A stretch of 64,000 nt of DNA from Bifidobacterium aquikefiri. GTDB taxonomy: Bacteria > Actinomycetota > Actinomycetes > Actinomycetales > Bifidobacteriaceae. A program made the position numbers and the translations under genes. Shown piece after piece: positions 39,354-58,238 of the stretch; positions within the stretch are counted from its first letter, which is position 1, and each line of letters begins with the position of its first letter. The notes beneath the pieces were generated by a model that ran no database searches, was not told the DNA's origin, and saw only the letters and a list, made by a program, of their open reading frames with translations. The stretch lies in the NCBI RefSeq assembly GCF_002259795.1, contig NZ_MWXA01000005.1:496001-560000 (forward strand). The letters run 5' to 3'.

Positions 39354-40124
39354 ATGCTCATCGCCGTTGATATAGGAAATACCGACATTGTGCTCGGCTT
39401 TCTGGAAGGCACCAAGATCATTGCTTCGTATCGCATGACCACTCTGCTCAGCCATACATCTGATGAATATGGGCTCATGCTCAGCGAGTTCCTTCAGATG
39501 AGCAACTATGCAGATTCAGACGTAGATGACGTCATCATCTCTTCAGTCGTGCCCAATGTGATGCACTCATTCCGCGCAGCCATAATCAAGTTCTTTGGTG
39601 TCGATCCGATCGTTGTCGGACCTGGCATCAAAACGGGAATCAACATCCGACTCGACGATCCGCGCTCTCTGGGTGCCGACTGCCTCTGTGACTGCGTGGG
39701 GGCGTTCGGTCTGTATGGCGGTCCGCTTCTGGTGCTGGATTTTGGCACTGCGACAACATATAACTATGTGGATGCCAAAGGCACGATCACGGCGGGCTTG
39801 ATAACCGTTGGCATTCGAAGCGGTGCTGCTGCACTTTCAAACAAGACTGCGCAACTCCCCGAAGTCGAAATCACCAGACCAAAATCGGTTTTCGCAACCG
39901 ATACAAAAACGGCCATGCAGGCAGGATTGTTCTATAACTTCCTCGGTGGAGTAGAGCGCACAATAGTGCAATTCCAAAGGGAAGTTGGCGAGAGCTTCAA
40001 AGTCGTCGCAACCGGTGGTTTCGGACGCATCATCGAGGGAGAGACGGACTCCATCGATGTCTACGATCCCAATCTGATTTTCAAGGGCATGCGCATGATC
40101 TATGACAAAAATATCAGTCGCTAA
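39354..40124 (+). CDS. coaX: Type III pantothenate kinase
   Basis: Phosphorylates pantothenate, the first step of coenzyme A synthesis. It has 256 residues, the normal length. It begins MLIAVDIGNTDIVLGF (phosphate-1 motif DxGNT) and has VLDFGTATTYNYVD. The pantothenate region reads LGADCLCDCVGAF where most homologues have GADR, and AGLITVGI where GGxIxPG is usual. The catalytic Asp is kept, but the Arg is replaced by Cys. It may be a divergent but active enzyme, or altered in metal or substrate use. Its stop TAA touches the long inverted repeat at 40124-40232. Confidence 0.88.
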   Translation: MLIAVDIGNTDIVLGFLEGTKIIASYRMTTLLSHTSDEYGLMLSEFLQMSNYADSDVDDVIISSVVPNVMHSFRAAIIKFFGVDPIVVGPGIKTGINIRLDDPRSLGADCLCDCVGAFGLYGGPLLVLDFGTATTYNYVDAKGTITAGLITVGIRSGAAALSNKTAQLPEVEITRPKSVFATDTKTAMQAGLFYNFLGGVERTIVQFQREVGESFKVVATGGFGRIIEGETDSIDVYDPNLIFKGMRMIYDKNISR

Positions 40125-40232
40125 ATGCTCATTGTGAACTGCTCACAGTATAGTGGCCTCTTTTTCGCTCGATTCCACTCTAAAATCAACGATGGCAAGA
40201 GTTTATACCGTGAGCAGTTCACAATGAGCATT
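40124..40232. repeat. Long inverted repeat between convergent coaX and sugar-binding-protein genes
   Basis: Bases 40124-40146 pair exactly with 40210-40232 (23 bp). With one mismatch the stem continues through 40152/40204 to 29 positions. The loop of about 51 bases has GGCCTCTTTTTCGC. The outer part contains TCATTGTGAACT, also the outer part of the inverted repeat at 56769-56873. It lies between the end of coaX (plus strand) and the end of a minus-strand gene, the place for a bidirectional terminator; the length and perfection exceed what termination needs. Confidence 0.85.
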
Positions 40233-40285
40233 GTTCATAGATTATTGGCATAGATTATTGGGATAAGCTTTCCAGCAATCTGCCA

Positions 40286-41629
40286 TTATTTGACCGTATA
40301 GCCTTGACTTTCGGCATATTTGGTGAGGTTTTTCTGCCATGCCGCGATGCCCTGACTTAAGGTAATCGACTTGTCGGTATAGGCGGCGCCTGCATCATCA
40401 GCGAAGATGCCACGTGCGTAGACTTCGAACGGCAGGAACTTGTAGCCAGTGATCACGTCTGTAGCCGCCTTCGCGAGAACCTTGTTATATTCCTGTCCAC
40501 CGAAGTACTCATTGGCTTTGCCGTTGGAATCAGTCAAGGACGTTGCATCCAGGAAGTCAGATGACTTGAGGGTGTCGTTGTCTGCAGGGAATGCGCCGGC
40601 ATCGACACGCGTCTTGATACCCGTCGCGCTATGGGCAACATAATCAAGGAACTTGTATGCAGCCTTGACCTTGGCATCATCGCTGGACTTGATGATGGCG
40701 AGTGATGAACCGCCATTCTCCGAATTCTCGGTACCGCCAGCCTCCCAGGTTGGCATTTGTGCTACGCGCCACTTTCCGGATCCGTCGGGAGCTCCGGAAA
40801 GAAGGTTGTATGGCATCCAGGCACCAGTAAGCAGCGAGGCGATCGAGCCATCGTTCAATCCCTTGTTCCAGTCATCCGACCAGCCTGGGGTCTTGGTATC
40901 GATCAGATCTTCATTAATCATCTTCTGCCAGAATGCGGTCCACTTCTTGACTCCTGAATCAGTGGTGAGGCCGATGGTAACGGTCTTGCCGTCCTTGCTC
41001 GTTGCAAATGGGGTGGCCCCAGCCTGCCATGTCATGGAATCGAAGAACCCTGCATCGCCGGTGTCTGACGTAATGTATGAACCGGTTGCACGAATCTTCT
41101 TTGCAGCCTCGTAGAATTCATCCCACGTTGTTGGCACCTGGGTGACACCAGCCTTATCGAAGACCTCCTTGTTGTAGAACAACGCCATGGGGCCGGAATC
41201 GATAGGCAATGCATAGACACCACCGTTGATGTTCACCGAACTCCAGGTACCTGGCGTATAGAAGCTCTTGTAGGACGAGGCTCCCAGACTGGAGAGATTC
41301 TGAAGATTATCGCGTATGACATATTCAGGCAGAGCGTAATATTCGATCTGTGCAATATCCGGCGCACCCTTGCCAGCCGACATCGCATTGTTCAACGCCG
41401 TATATTCATCTTTGTTGGTTCCAGCGTTGGTCACCTTGACCTTGATGTTCGGATTGGCCTTTTCGAATCCGGCAACAGTGCGAGGCACCGTCGAATCCCA
41501 TGACCACACGACTATCGAAGTTGTGGCACTGCCCGAATCGCTCGATGAGCTACTCGAACCACAGGCCACCAACGGTGCCAACATAATAACAGCACCAACT
41601 AGAGCAACTGCTCGTTTTGTGAACTTCAT
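40286..41629 (-). CDS. Sugar ABC-importer binding lipoprotein (SBP family 1)
   Basis: 447 residues. The signal peptide MKFTKRAVALVGAVIMLAP ends at the lipobox LVAC, then a Ser-rich linker. The mature part has the family features IVVWSWDSTVPRTVAGFEKAN, VTNAGTNKDEYTALNNAMS and PDIAQIEYYALPEYV. It captures an oligosaccharide outside the membrane. It is downstream of the GH42 gene on the same strand but separated by 198 bases holding a palindromic operator, so it has its own promoter. ATG 41629 follows AAGGAGAATGAACG. No ATPase gene is nearby; a shared MsmK-type ATPase encoded elsewhere is likely. Confidence 0.93.
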   Translation of the reverse strand: MKFTKRAVALVGAVIMLAPLVACGSSSSSSDSGSATTSIVVWSWDSTVPRTVAGFEKANPNIKVKVTNAGTNKDEYTALNNAMSAGKGAPDIAQIEYYALPEYVIRDNLQNLSSLGASSYKSFYTPGTWSSVNINGGVYALPIDSGPMALFYNKEVFDKAGVTQVPTTWDEFYEAAKKIRATGSYITSDTGDAGFFDSMTWQAGATPFATSKDGKTVTIGLTTDSGVKKWTAFWQKMINEDLIDTKTPGWSDDWNKGLNDGSIASLLTGAWMPYNLLSGAPDGSGKWRVAQMPTWEAGGTENSENGGSSLAIIKSSDDAKVKAAYKFLDYVAHSATGIKTRVDAGAFPADNDTLKSSDFLDATSLTDSNGKANEYFGGQEYNKVLAKAATDVITGYKFLPFEVYARGIFADDAGAAYTDKSITLSQGIAAWQKNLTKYAESQGYTVK

Positions 41630-54126: not shown

Positions 54127-55389
54127 ATGTGGACCACATTCTTGACCACCATTAAGGTGAATCTTCGCGAGAAAAGCAACCTGCTCTGGCTGTTCATATT
54201 CCCCATTCTCATGGCGAGTCTGTTCTGGGGCATGTTCAGCGGACTGACGAACAGGCAGATCCAGGCCCAGAATTTCGCCGTTGTGCATGACTCGAACTGG
54301 AGCACCGTTGCAGGTGCAGATTCGCTGGTCAATGCGCTCGCGGGAAAGAATACCAACGGCACGAAGTTGATACGTCCAACAACGGTTTCGTCCGTTTCTG
54401 CCGCAAAAAAGCGCGTGCAGGCCGGGCACGATAGCGGTTATCTCTTTGTGAATGACGTAGGAAGCTTCGGCATTGCCATCTCCGACGACCTATACAACGA
54501 ATTCACCAATAACATGTCATCGTCAACTGCGAGCATTACCGTGAGCTCCTTGAGAAGCATCATCACTCAGTTCAATCACAGCCAGACGACCCTCAAGACT
54601 CTGGCTGCATCTCATCCGACAGCGAGCACGCAGGGGCAGACGCAGACACGGCAGCAGGCACAACTACAGATTCAGGCACAGCTTGAACGTTATATTGCAG
54701 CGAGTACGGCGAGCGCAAAGCTGAGCTATACACGCAACCGCTCGCTCACTAACTTCGCGCCAGATCAGTTTGCACGGTATTATTATGCGCTGCTTGGCAT
54801 GGTTTCGATGATGTCGATGAGCTTTGCCATCACCTCCATATCCACTGCACAAGCGAATCTGTCGGCAGTGGGAGCGCGTCGCTCGATTGCACCGCTGCCA
54901 AAATGGCGACAATTCAGTGCCATTTTGCTCGCCAGCTGGTTGACCTCGTTCCTGAGCCTCGTGGTGTCGTTCTGCTACATCCGATTCGTGTGCAATATTG
55001 CGGTCGGAGGTCGAGAGCCGCTCGCCATTCTCGCCTTGCTGATTGCAAGCTTCACCGCAACTGCCTTCGGACTGCTGATTGGTGCAATTCCCAGACTCTC
55101 ACGCGGTGCGAAGACCGGTATCAGCACTGCCATTGCGTGTTTTGGAGCGCTGTTTGCAGGACTGTATGGATCGTTTGCCATGAGCTTGAGCGATTCGATA
55201 AGTCGCAATATTCCGACATTTGATCTGTTCAACCCGGTAAAGCAGGTTTCGAACCTGTTCTATGACCTGCTCTATTACGACAGTCTGCAGCCATTCATGA
55301 CCACCGTAGGAATTCTGCTGATCACCGGAGCCATCTGCATGACATTGGCAATCAGTCTGATGAGGAGACGCAGCTATGCAAACCTTTAA
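54127..55389 (+). CDS. ABC-2 exporter permease
   Basis: 420 residues. One N-terminal helix (LLWLFIFPILMASLFWGMF), an outer domain of about 190 residues with a Gln-rich stretch QGQTQTRQQAQLQIQ, then five C-terminal helices, the ABC-2 type layout. ATG 54127 follows AAGGAGGAAGCAAACCATC. It ends 14 bases inside the next permease gene. Presumed heterodimer with that product. Confidence 0.85.
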   Translation: MWTTFLTTIKVNLREKSNLLWLFIFPILMASLFWGMFSGLTNRQIQAQNFAVVHDSNWSTVAGADSLVNALAGKNTNGTKLIRPTTVSSVSAAKKRVQAGHDSGYLFVNDVGSFGIAISDDLYNEFTNNMSSSTASITVSSLRSIITQFNHSQTTLKTLAASHPTASTQGQTQTRQQAQLQIQAQLERYIAASTASAKLSYTRNRSLTNFAPDQFARYYYALLGMVSMMSMSFAITSISTAQANLSAVGARRSIAPLPKWRQFSAILLASWLTSFLSLVVSFCYIRFVCNIAVGGREPLAILALLIASFTATAFGLLIGAIPRLSRGAKTGISTAIACFGALFAGLYGSFAMSLSDSISRNIPTFDLFNPVKQVSNLFYDLLYYDSLQPFMTTVGILLITGAICMTLAISLMRRRSYANL

Positions 55390-56752
55390 AACAGCACTTC
55401 GTATTCTCTGGGCGCACAAGCTGTACATGCTCATTTATCTAATCAGTTTCGGCGCACTGATGCTGTCTCTGGGAATTTCCAGCATCATTGCGGCGGGCAA
55501 TGATACGAACGCCTTATCAAGTCAGACTTCTGGCATCAGTTCGTCATCTGCTCATCATGCCGATTCCAAATTGCCAGAAGCCAATATTGCAATCATCAAC
55601 CGCGATTCAGGCAATCTCGCGCAAGGACTGCGCGATTATCTTGGTTCAAGCGCCACCATGGTGAAGCTTCAAGACACACCGCAACGCCTGCAGGATGCGA
55701 TTGCACGCAATGACGTTGACCTGATTGTAATTATTCCGCACGGCTATGCTGAGCGTTTCGAAAAGGCCGCAATCTCATCAAGCACTGAACCATCAAGCAA
55801 TGGTTCGGCAGACAACGCTTCGTCACAGAGTTCGAATGCAACCATGCCGCTTGCCGATACCACGGTGAGCTACCTTTCCAGTGAGGGATCATTGGCAAAA
55901 ATCGATGTGAATGGCTATTTTTCAGAACTCAGAACCGTTCTGGCTTCAGGTGTGCAGCCCGACCTGCCAAGCGCCGTGCGCTATGTTGTACAGCAATCGA
56001 AGGGCTCCAATCTCTCCCCTACCGTTCAGGTATTGAAAGATGCCGCAGACACGGGCAAATCAATAGCCAACAGCTTTGGCCTGACCATCAAGCTCTCGAT
56101 CTATCCCATTTTCATGGCGATGACCGTATGCATCTCCCTATTAATCGGAGTGTTCAATGCGCCTGAGACGAGACGCCGTCTATCCGCCTCCTCCGTTCGG
56201 TCATATGCACTGAGCGCGCAACAGTTGCTTGGTGGCGTGAGCTTCGGCCTCGTTTGCTGGGCACTGTATTATTCGATCGTATTGCTGGCAATCATGCCGT
56301 TCAACCATGCCTTCTCTGCAATCAGCATGCCTGCGATAGCCATGGTAGCCCTCTCCCAACTGGCTTGTACCCTGGTTTCGATGGCCTTTGGCTTCATGAT
56401 CGGACAATTCAGAACGTCGACCGTCGTGTCCAATGCAGTCGCAACATCATTTGGATTGATTCTGATGTTCACTTCGGGTGCCGCATTTGATCCGTCTGTC
56501 ATGCCTCAGGCCATGGTAACTCTCGGAAAGCTCCTGCCGGGGTGGTGGTTCACTGCTTCCATTAACAATGCTCTTGGCATGACGACTTTCCAGACTCCCA
56601 GTCCAAGCGCGTTCGGATGGTTGCAAAGCATAGGCCTGGTAGCGCTGTTTGGTTGCGTCTTCGTGTGCATAGGGCTTGCGGGAGGCAGATATCGCAGTAC
56701 TCACACAGAATTCGGCATGGCCAATCGCATCACCGAACTCACCGAGCAATAA
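55376..56752 (+). CDS. ABC-2 exporter permease, second subunit
   Basis: 458 residues with the same plan as its neighbour: helix LYMLIYLISFGALMLSLGI, a Ser/Asn-rich outer domain of about 200 residues, then helices such as IYPIFMAMTVCISLLIGVF. The ATG lies within the preceding gene (14-base overlap), so they are co-translated. It ends 16 bases before the 32-bp inverted repeat. Confidence 0.85.
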   Translation: MQTFKTALRILWAHKLYMLIYLISFGALMLSLGISSIIAAGNDTNALSSQTSGISSSSAHHADSKLPEANIAIINRDSGNLAQGLRDYLGSSATMVKLQDTPQRLQDAIARNDVDLIVIIPHGYAERFEKAAISSSTEPSSNGSADNASSQSSNATMPLADTTVSYLSSEGSLAKIDVNGYFSELRTVLASGVQPDLPSAVRYVVQQSKGSNLSPTVQVLKDAADTGKSIANSFGLTIKLSIYPIFMAMTVCISLLIGVFNAPETRRRLSASSVRSYALSAQQLLGGVSFGLVCWALYYSIVLLAIMPFNHAFSAISMPAIAMVALSQLACTLVSMAFGFMIGQFRTSTVVSNAVATSFGLILMFTSGAAFDPSVMPQAMVTLGKLLPGWWFTASINNALGMTTFQTPSPSAFGWLQSIGLVALFGCVFVCIGLAGGRYRSTHTEFGMANRITELTEQ

Positions 56753-56768: not shown

Positions 56769-56873
56769 CGTTCATTGTGAACTTAGCGAAGTATCAACGC
56801 GAATATTGGGCAATCTGACGTAATGAAACAGCCCTTTTTCAGCGTTGATACTTCGCTAAGTTCACAATGAACG
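56769..56873. repeat. 32-bp perfect inverted repeat between convergent exporter and nagA genes
   Basis: Bases 56769-56800 are exactly complementary to 56842-56873, with a 41-base loop containing GCCCTTTTTC. The outer portion reads CGTTCATTGTGAACT and shares TCATTGTGAACT with the arms at 40124-40232; the inner portions differ. It lies between the exporter stop (56752, plus) and the nagA stop (56889, minus). It could act as a bidirectional terminator, a small structured RNA or a MITE-like element. No target-site duplication was seen. Confidence 0.88.
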
Positions 56874-56888
56874 AATTCGACTCCGATT

Positions 56889-58151
56889 TCAGACCAACTG
56901 TCGGCCTTCGCACCAGACTGACTGCGCCTTCCAGGACTGTTCGGCGTGAATAATGCAATCCGCAGCGTATCCCGGTGCAAGAAAGCCGAGTGGATAGTTC
57001 GTGATCGTATTGGGACGCTCGATTCCCAGCGCATGTGCCGGGCCTTCGGTCGCAGCTGCGACGACATCCACGGCGGACAAGCCCAGTTCCTCCACTCCTC
57101 TGCGCACGGATTCCTCCATGGTCAGCGTGGAGCCTGCTATGGCACCATTCGAAACAAGTCGAGCATGACCTTCCTCAACGTTGACATCAAGCTTTCCCAG
57201 GGTGTACGCACCATCGGGGCATCCTGTCGCCGCCATGGAATCGGTGATGAGCGCTATGCGTCTGCCGAAGAGTGCGAACGCAAGCTTGACCACAGGGTTC
57301 TGCACATGAAATCCGTCGTTGATCAGTTCGACCTGAACGCGAGGATCTTCCAGAATCGCAGGAATCGGCCCCGGCTTGCGGTGATGGATGCCGTTCATGG
57401 CATTGAACACATGGGTGAGAATTCTGGCTCCTGCATCGACTCCTCGCCGCGTGGTCTCGTAGTCGGCATCGCAATGGCCGATGGCAGGTACGACACCTGC
57501 CTGACTGAATCGACGTATCGCTTCGATGCCATGCGGCAGCTCCGGTGCAATCGTGATCTGACGAATGCACCCATTGCCGGCCTCCAGCAAACGATCGACA
57601 TACTGTGGCTCAGGATCCCGCAGACATGCAGGGTCGTGCGCACCCTTGCGTGATAATGCAAGGAATGGCCCCTCGAGATGAGCGCCAAGGCAATCAGGAC
57701 GTGCAGCACAGACCTTGGCAACCGTACGCAGATTGTTGCACATCACATCCAGTGGATTCGTTATCAGACTGAGCACCTGCCGCGTGGTGCCATGAACGGC
57801 ATGGCCGACACGTGCCATTGCAATGCCTTCACTGCCATCATCGAATGAGCGTTCCCATGCGCCGTGGGAATGAATGTCGATGTACCCCGGTGTGAGAATG
57901 GCGCCCTGGGCATCGGTTGACGACTGCACTGCATCCGAGTGCGCACAGACAGCAGCCCATGCGCGGTTATAATCATCATCTCTGGTTCCTGTTGCAACAA
58001 TCTCTCCGTGTGCTGAAACCAGCCAAAAATGGTGCTCGATGCCACGAGCATCAATTTTTGTGGCATTTCGGATTGCAAAGGTCTGTGCCGCTCCTGTGAC
58101 CGCCTTCTGCACCGCAAGGCTCTGCTCTTCCTTCGATTCGTTGCCATTCAT
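56889..58151 (-). CDS. nagA: N-acetylglucosamine-6-phosphate deacetylase
   Basis: Removes acetate from GlcNAc-6-P. It has 420 residues from ATG 58151, with GGGTGAG upstream. Metal site TPGYIDIHSHGAWE, then LGAHLEGPFLA, IGHCDAD, HVFNAMNGIHHRKPG, LINDGFHVQNP and the catalytic Asp in LITDSMAATG. It forms an operon with nagB and the ROK genes on the same strand, for amino-sugar use. Confidence 0.96.
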   Translation of the reverse strand: MNGNESKEEQSLAVQKAVTGAAQTFAIRNATKIDARGIEHHFWLVSAHGEIVATGTRDDDYNRAWAAVCAHSDAVQSSTDAQGAILTPGYIDIHSHGAWERSFDDGSEGIAMARVGHAVHGTTRQVLSLITNPLDVMCNNLRTVAKVCAARPDCLGAHLEGPFLALSRKGAHDPACLRDPEPQYVDRLLEAGNGCIRQITIAPELPHGIEAIRRFSQAGVVPAIGHCDADYETTRRGVDAGARILTHVFNAMNGIHHRKPGPIPAILEDPRVQVELINDGFHVQNPVVKLAFALFGRRIALITDSMAATGCPDGAYTLGKLDVNVEEGHARLVSNGAIAGSTLTMEESVRRGVEELGLSAVDVVAAATEGPAHALGIERPNTITNYPLGFLAPGYAADCIIHAEQSWKAQSVWCEGRQLV

Positions 58152-58238
58152 GTACCGCTCACCCTCTCCTCTGGCAGGCATCGTTACTCGCAATCCTGCC
58201 TCGTTTCGATCGTTCCGGGGAATTTCTTCCAGCCAGGA

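Follow-up and report, generated by a model that had tools for sequence, protein, structure and literature searches.

What are the long inverted repeats that stand behind genes in Bifidobacterium aquikefiri, and what keeps their ends constant while their interiors differ? The question arises from two repeats in a window of 64,000 nucleotides (the whole stretch of DNA analysed). The initial annotation had taken them for members of a family with a fixed outer core and a variable paired inner part, perhaps bidirectional terminators, structured RNAs or MITE-like units. The inverted repeat at 40124-40232 is real, with arms of 29 nt that are 97% complementary; the second repeat has arms of 50 nt at 84% complementarity and an orthologous copy in a second species of the genus (G005, locus L055). 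The core TCATTGTGAACT that the two were said to share occurs exactly four times in the window, always within these two pairs, and the gene neighbours confirm that both repeats lie between convergent gene ends. The relevant features are listed below, with gene names (coaX; MBP for the solute-binding protein; nagA; ABC transporter permease) that we presume to fit the products.

39354..40124, plus strand: type III pantothenate kinase-like gene, coaX; start chosen inside the listed open reading frame, stop 4 bp ahead of the element 1 core
40129..40227, no strand: element 1, core to core, 99 bp, with an exact core pair
40129..40150, plus strand: element 1 left arm, with core TCATTGTGAACT at 40129-40140, variable bases at 40141-40147, then GTA
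40151..40205, no strand: element 1 inner segment, a phased alternation of A/T and G/C whose sequence is unshared with most elements
40206..40227, minus strand: element 1 right arm, the left arm in inverted copy
40228..40376, no strand: element 1 outer flank, phased with a score of 0.101 (family-average extent), which enters MBP at its 3' end
40286..41629, minus strand: extracellular solute-binding protein-like gene (MBP), convergent with coaX and flanking element 1
55376..56752, plus strand: ABC transporter permease-like gene, convergent, flanking element 2
56772..56870, no strand: element 2, core to core, 99 bp, of the same family as element 1
56889..58193, minus strand: nagA-like gene, flanking element 2, with a phased 3' end (0.066)

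A dispersed family with near-invariant arms

In the genome that holds the window (G000; 2.41 Mb in 18 contigs), a scan for TCATTGTGAACT and its complement 60-90 bases apart returned 38 exact inverted pairs and a reversed-pattern control returned none. Five further pairs with mismatches at the fixed length of 99 bring the count to at least 43 copies. A family with a fixed outer core therefore exists, and its paired cores are neither at chance frequency nor confined to the two elements of the window. G005 has 32 exact pairs; the other 25 of 27 genomes from the genus lack exact pairs. A core-pair scan of a wider contig collection, from which the own or near genomes may be absent, also gave 0, and the patterns of this family (F1) and of two others described below (F2 and F3) were not found in the nagB-region loci L093-L126. 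Search lengths were limited to 84-114 for F1, 94-122 for F2 and 98-128 for F3, so that other length classes could be missed. The F1 collection comprises 77 copies, 43 from G000 and 34 from G005; all of them enter the length classes, the anatomy profile and the T-run count, and the near-identical paralogs L046, L068, L056 and the first L058 copy are left out of the counts of arm symmetry, phasing, flanks, position and shifts and, where 99 bp long, of the sequence model used below. In G005, near-identical 110-bp repeats stand directly behind tRNA-Gly genes (L046 1908-1981, L068 2130-2203, and L042); two of these genes were called by ARAGORN and L042 shows a tRNA-like 3' end only.

Each F1 copy consists of two inverted arms of ~22 bp around a variable inner part. 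Numbered from the first core base, arm positions 1-12 are near-invariant, positions 13-19 are variable and the GTA at 20-22 is again near-invariant. The core-to-core length is 99 in 51 copies, 100 in 5, 109 in 3, 110 in 16 and 111 in 2 (n = 77), and no copy measures 101-108; the length classes lie one helical turn apart. At two orthologous G000/G005 loci (L003/L044 and L038/L062) the length differs by 11 or 10 bp.

A third species, G016, carries the family with another core. It was found by a sequence model, for which at most 33 candidates were scored per genome so that counts are floors, and then by a pattern of the inner half-motif. This pattern gives 43 pairs in G016, 31 in G005 and 29 in G000 and is absent from the remaining 116 of 119 relatives; its reversed control gives one pair in G049 and 0 elsewhere among the 119. 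The G016 copies have the outer core CAAGTTTTTGGCACTT in place of GTTCATTGTGAACTT and retain the ACTT-NNNN-AAGTA spacing. Of 41 copies, a set without the L238 copy, which was read directly, 38 are 100 bp long, two 110 and one 99; symmetry and flank counts were made without L239 and L240, and flank scores with length-100 copies only. The G016 copies look clustered, as judged by eye. Around other genes, at L232, L239, L225 and L221, repeats are often 0.6-2 kb apart, and several of these copies are recent and, apart from the repeat itself, have little in common.

The paired inner arms noted at the outset are true of elements 1 and 2, where for instance the element 1 bases at 40141-40147 tend to match the opposite arm, but elsewhere pairing is only a tendency. 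At positions 13-19 the arms match in 183 of 301 cells in G000 (145 expected) and in 165 of 210 in G005 (122 expected). Outside the core, at -5 to 0, G000 has 104 matches in 258 cells where 98 are expected and G005 has 86 in 180 where 75 are expected, a small excess; at 23-30 the excess has a z of 1.3 in G000 and 3.0 in G005. Across 24 orthologous pairs, changes on both sides account for 21 of 168 cells at positions 13-19, compared with 12.6 expected, and 11 of these are paired in both species. Single arm changes leave 38 cells mismatched in G000 and paired in G005, and 7 the opposite way. The match excess together with the changes on both sides implies either a constraint on the arms to pair, stronger in G005, or a copying process that maintains their likeness.

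In the same 24 orthologous pairs the inner part is inverted relative to the flanks in 6, collinear in 15 and ambiguous in 3. This would suit micro-invertible elements of a tyrosine recombinase, with the arms as core sites with a variable overlap, as would the confinement of symmetry in G000 and G005 to positions 13-19 between near-invariant motifs and the presence of a further F1 copy in G000, outside the set of 43 (L073 2473-2568), at ~0.4 kb from a XerC/XerD-like gene. However, template switching in hairpins also yields inversion, and in G016 the arm symmetry runs from about -8 to 18, a range that agrees with pairing. Among 16 integrase-family matches in G000 and G005, that gene is the only one with an exact core within ~1.5 kb; the other 15 loci are without exact TTGTGAACT, and in G005 no exact core lies near the orthologous gene (L074). 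We rejected the tyrosine recombinase as the acting enzyme, and elements of this kind are very improbable. Separately, a tyrosine integrase of ~450 aa (L078 and L079 in G005, L080 in G000) is 92-94% identical, with a fragment in G000 (L084) at 84-87%; set against the 81-83% identity of the XerC/XerD-like genes, the integrase looks recently shared.

Helical phasing of the inner part and of flanking genes

Inner sequence is unrelated between most copies. Its A/T content oscillates between ~0.95 and ~0.2 with a best period of 10.55 bp, and phasing lies above the 95% level of the copies' own shuffles in 49 of 49 non-redundant 99-bp copies and 14 of 14 copies of 110 bp. The A/T stretches are A-tract-like: A and T can almost stand in for each other and TA steps are rare, which is expected of bending and not of base reading. 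The CTTTTTC run recorded in both loops is indeed present, at 32-37 of both elements, but it is not a conserved motif, since it belongs to a phased A/T tract in which A and T are about equally common. The inner segment between the arms is held by DNA phasing, not by arm pairing, and the term "variable paired inner part" thus describes arm positions 13-19 but not the longer segment between the arms. A wedge model gave, for 50 elements, a ratio of end-to-end distance to contour of 0.86 compared with 0.93 for shuffled sequences; because this extra curvature is modest, we do not claim intrinsic curvature alone. As RNA the inner parts are weakly structured (mean z -0.86 for 29 folds). An Rfam covariance-model scan of the window returned tRNA alone at gathering score and no match for the repeats, and with nothing strong from either the scan or the folds the suggested structured RNAs were rejected. 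In G016 the inner rhythm has a best period of 10.75, and an outer rhythm is present in the same phase.

This outer rhythm, measured over 146 flanks, has an amplitude of 0.081, 0.053 and 0.022 in successive 50-bp steps and then falls to background. It extends ~100-150 bp beyond the repeat into neighbouring genes, and the phased region measures ~380 bp. From 10 to 110 bp out, none of 2000 random shifts reaches it in G000, G005 or G016 taken separately; from 110 to 160 bp it is weaker and is reached by 1, 0 and 12 of 2000 shifts, respectively, the G000 and G005 flanks being non-independent at orthologous loci. In coding flanks nearest the repeat, its strength at third codon positions (0.208) is roughly double that at first and second positions (0.093 and 0.126). 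Mean flank scores are 0.067 and 0.069 (SE 0.005) beside repeats common to both species, and 0.049 (SE 0.006) and 0.039 (SE 0.014) beside private repeats.

Three flanking genes were testable across species, with the G000 spacing from the stop codon applied to all. The MBP flank scores 0.101 in G000 and 0.078 in G016; 12 relatives without the repeat have a mean of -0.015, and none of them equals or exceeds the G000 score. For nagA the scores are 0.066 in G000 and 0.090 in G005, and 30 relatives have a mean of -0.008, with one of them at or above 0.066. The coaX flank has no phasing in any species compared (0.010 in G000). As far as a comparison of present-day genomes can, this shows acquisition of the outer phasing with or after the repeat in two of the three genes tested. 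A local mutation bias as the origin of the outer rhythm is not favoured over selection for bendability, which is the simpler explanation because it accounts for the gain of A/T on one face and of G/C on the other.

A Vsr/DUF559-like nuclease gene beside the repeats

A three-species flank comparison placed one nuclease gene between two repeats ~1 kb apart in G000, G005 and G016. The locus is common to G000 and G005; in G016 only the gene itself matched, and the nuclease therefore apparently sits at a different locus. Its product has 275-284 aa, and the C-terminal part resembles MTES_1575/DUF559 nucleases, below the Pfam cut-off, as are the Pfam matches in most copies. In the available part of PMC3710099, the MTES_1575 domain is a Vsr-family REase. 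PADLOC returned a "homing endonuclease" match for the G016 nuclease (E 6e-6), and a viral collection held 19 weak relatives, matching in the nuclease domain only. The best PDB match of the C-terminal domain is 3r3p, "Mobile intron protein" (E 0.014), which we take to be I-Bth0305I. E169, D202, H220 and D229 form an E-D-H-D set invariant in 12 homologs and are presumably the residues of the EDxHD motif; L274, whose translation holds a stop, was left out of alignment A3. The likeness to EDxHD/Vsr-like homing endonucleases consists of this domain match, weak by sequence, and of the four residues. The difference is that the present nuclease is encoded by a free-standing gene, not seen in an intron or intein, and that palindromic repeats with dispersed solo copies flank it.

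Close homologs (E < 1e-80) are confined, within the set of 27 genus genomes, to G000 (2), G005 (2), G016 (2) and G024 (1); there is one more, weak, homolog in G005 and one weak match in G023. The F1-type pattern is found in three of the four genomes with a close homolog and in 0 of the 23 others (Fisher p 0.0014). In eight of eight repeat-bearing genomes a Vsr/DUF559-like nuclease gene adjoins copies, with repeats on both sides in G000, G005, G016, G063 and G071 and on one side, as found, in G024, G041 and G062. In the top-scoring genomes the best loci all have inverted repeats with a span of 85-150 bp within 500 bp of the homolog (12 of 12), as do 5 of 7 further nuclease copies, compared with a control rate of 12 in 477,754 bp; this test was made without L261, and L287 is outside its set. 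Distant DUF559-like homologs have repeats beside only 2 of 17. The further G041 copies L283 and L284 have no repeats within 500 bp, and next to L287, the weak homolog in G005, stands only a hairpin of 44 bp. We also observed CTCTACCTGCACATCTGA in inverted repeats beside weak nuclease homologs, at L265 2135-2271 (G023) and L287 2380-2423 (G005). At L019 3025-3049 in G000 the nuclease gene enters the neighbouring repeat, whose arm gives the last codons and the stop. In G063, which belongs to another genus, L282 3407-3517 is a solo repeat with the same core as the pair flanking the nuclease L277, and its inner part is a near-perfect hairpin.

Other nuclease copies, and homologs in other genera, adjoin inverted repeats with cores of their own. 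From the cores read beside further copies two additional dispersed families were predicted, and pattern searches in the genomes with the nuclease found both. F2, with the core GAGTTTTG..GC read beside second nuclease copies, numbers 33 in G000, 58 in G005 and 45 in G016, with 5 in G041, 1 in G063 and 0 in five other genomes searched. F3, with the core beside the G024 nuclease, numbers 37 in G024, 3 in G071 and 1 in G062, and 0 in G000, G005 and G016. Reversed controls gave 0 throughout both searches. Length classes one turn apart recur in these families: 101-104 and 113-114 for F2 in G000 (33 copies), 102-104, 112 and 122 for F2 in G005 (42 listed of 58), and 102-103, 112-114 and 124-125 for F3 in G024 (37 copies). 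In 20 copies of each, F2 and F3 show inner rhythms with best periods of 10.9-11.05 and 11.05-11.45, that of G024 being the weaker. Their outer rhythm reaches to about 100 bp, the next step (100-150 bp) not exceeding shuffles. On these comparative grounds the association between repeat and nuclease is well supported.

Terminators, mobile elements and a proposed DNA-bending complex

The 73 non-redundant copies comprise 33 in convergent, 37 in tandem and 2 in divergent positions and 1 unclassified. Compared with the intergenic bases of the window, whose 49 genes were predicted by a custom script, convergent sites are enriched (p 6e-10) and divergent sites depleted (p 2e-6); the convergent setting of the first two elements is a preference of the family but not exclusive to it, at 33 of 72 classified copies. 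Copies lie just behind stop codons, and those between tandem genes are closer to the upstream stop in 34 of 37. At the coaX-MBP site a repeat of the G016 type is present in G016, whereas in G023 and G024 the site is occupied by a plain hairpin that lacks a T-run; in G015 a hairpin follows MBP. Terminators of the hairpin kind that lack a T-run are called I-shaped. The copies behind stops and the relatives' hairpins at this gene end indicate that the repeats occupy terminator positions, and at the one gene end open to comparison the repeat takes the place of a terminator-like hairpin seen in relatives. The same neighbour was not found next to coaX in G005, and there is therefore no clean empty site for element 1.

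These positions, together with the covariation of the arms, agree with host-evolved bidirectional terminators, in which the long hairpin of the arm transcript would end both convergent transcripts. Nevertheless, a T-run of the kind that marks an intrinsic terminator (at least 6 T in 8, within 20 bp outside the repeat) occurs at only 7 of 154 ends, the inner part folds weakly as RNA, and neither the flank phasing nor the helical length classes have a role in an RNA hairpin. The presence of repeats beside one nuclease clade would also be left unexplained. The repeats resemble I-shaped terminators in position, and differ from them in double-stranded DNA phasing, length classes and the nuclease link. 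We consider an origin purely as host terminators unlikely; what remains of the bidirectional terminators first proposed is the position behind stops and the match to relatives' plain hairpins, but helical phasing into genes goes unexplained by them.

Phasing is what would be expected of chromosome-organising sites, used genome-wide by a nucleoid or topology protein (gyrase-like wrapping or a loop clamp), with the nuclease secondary. The period is near the DNA helical repeat, the A/T stretches are A-tract-like with few TA steps, ~380 bp are phased and the sites lie behind genes; supercoils collect between convergent gene pairs. Such a general function fits poorly with a family restricted to one lineage (the F1-type pattern is in 3 of 119 relatives), with the different core alongside each nuclease lineage and with the apparent clustering of copies in G016, and it seems to us rather improbable.

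The comparison with mobile elements is similarly divided. Like MITEs, the repeats are short, with inverted ends and no coding capacity of their own, and the description as MITE-like units comes close for the dispersed copies and for those that flank an enzyme gene, although no transposase with these ends was found among the tyrosine recombinases (G000, G005) and Y1_Tnp genes searched. Inner sequence is not common to most copies, no case of insertion was resolved that shows both an empty site and a target duplication, and near-identical copies carry 5-18 bp of extra flank, unlike precise transposition. In the available portions of PMC3116915 and PMC3733652, the REPIN/RAYT system has many inverted doublets close behind genes, some of which flank an enzyme gene, and its several repeat groups each adjoin a separate enzyme gene; REPIN-like dispersal is tied to RAYT transposases. 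As far as those portions go, the bifidobacterial repeats are alike in being dispersed extragenic inverted doublets of which the same repeats flank an enzyme gene. They differ in their enzyme, a Vsr/DUF559-like nuclease in place of a HUH tyrosine transposase (or of a DDE transposase), and in that the inner part is kept by a helical phasing that spreads into flanking genes. A search for the RAYT-type Y1_Tnp domain found none in G000, G005, G016, G024, G041, G052, G063 and G071 and one in G069, which contradicts a RAYT-driven REPIN in eight of nine genomes searched; for this reason and because of the different enzyme, the family is not filed as REPIN. An ordinary MITE or a RAYT-driven REPIN is, in our estimate, highly unlikely. 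We found no paper in the open-licence PMC literature that joins DUF559, Vsr-like homing endonucleases or bacterial phased A-tracts with inverted repeats, and the available parts of that literature on Bifidobacterium repeats and on EDxHD hold nothing on these repeats.

On balance, we think it probable, with some reserve, that the repeats are non-autonomous and are kept or spread by the Vsr/DUF559-like nuclease, whose complex bends or wraps DNA, and that they also replace terminators. In such a mechanism the nuclease, perhaps with a nucleoid protein, would bind both arms, and the phased DNA would bend or wrap so that the arms meet. The complex could then copy or maintain the repeats by nicking and repair, and at the gene ends so occupied the arm hairpin may act as a bidirectional terminator. 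A bolder form of the nuclease reading, which we put forward only tentatively, is that a nucleosome-like particle seeded by the nuclease-bound inverted arms wraps ~380 bp at some 75-95 sites per genome. Selection for wrapping would then have rewritten synonymous, and even non-synonymous, neighbouring bases in a 10.55-bp rhythm, and the identity of a repeat would be inherited as DNA shape and not as sequence.

Since the enzyme flanked by these repeats is a Vsr/DUF559-like nuclease, a second kind of enzyme may keep bacterial repeat populations. The helical rhythm would be the footprint, legible from sequence alone, of a DNA-bending complex on adjacent coding DNA. If it reflects selection for wrapping, these flanks would offer a direct test case of how codon choice is limited by a protein-DNA assembly; a mutational imprint would instead represent a new kind of local mutation bias.
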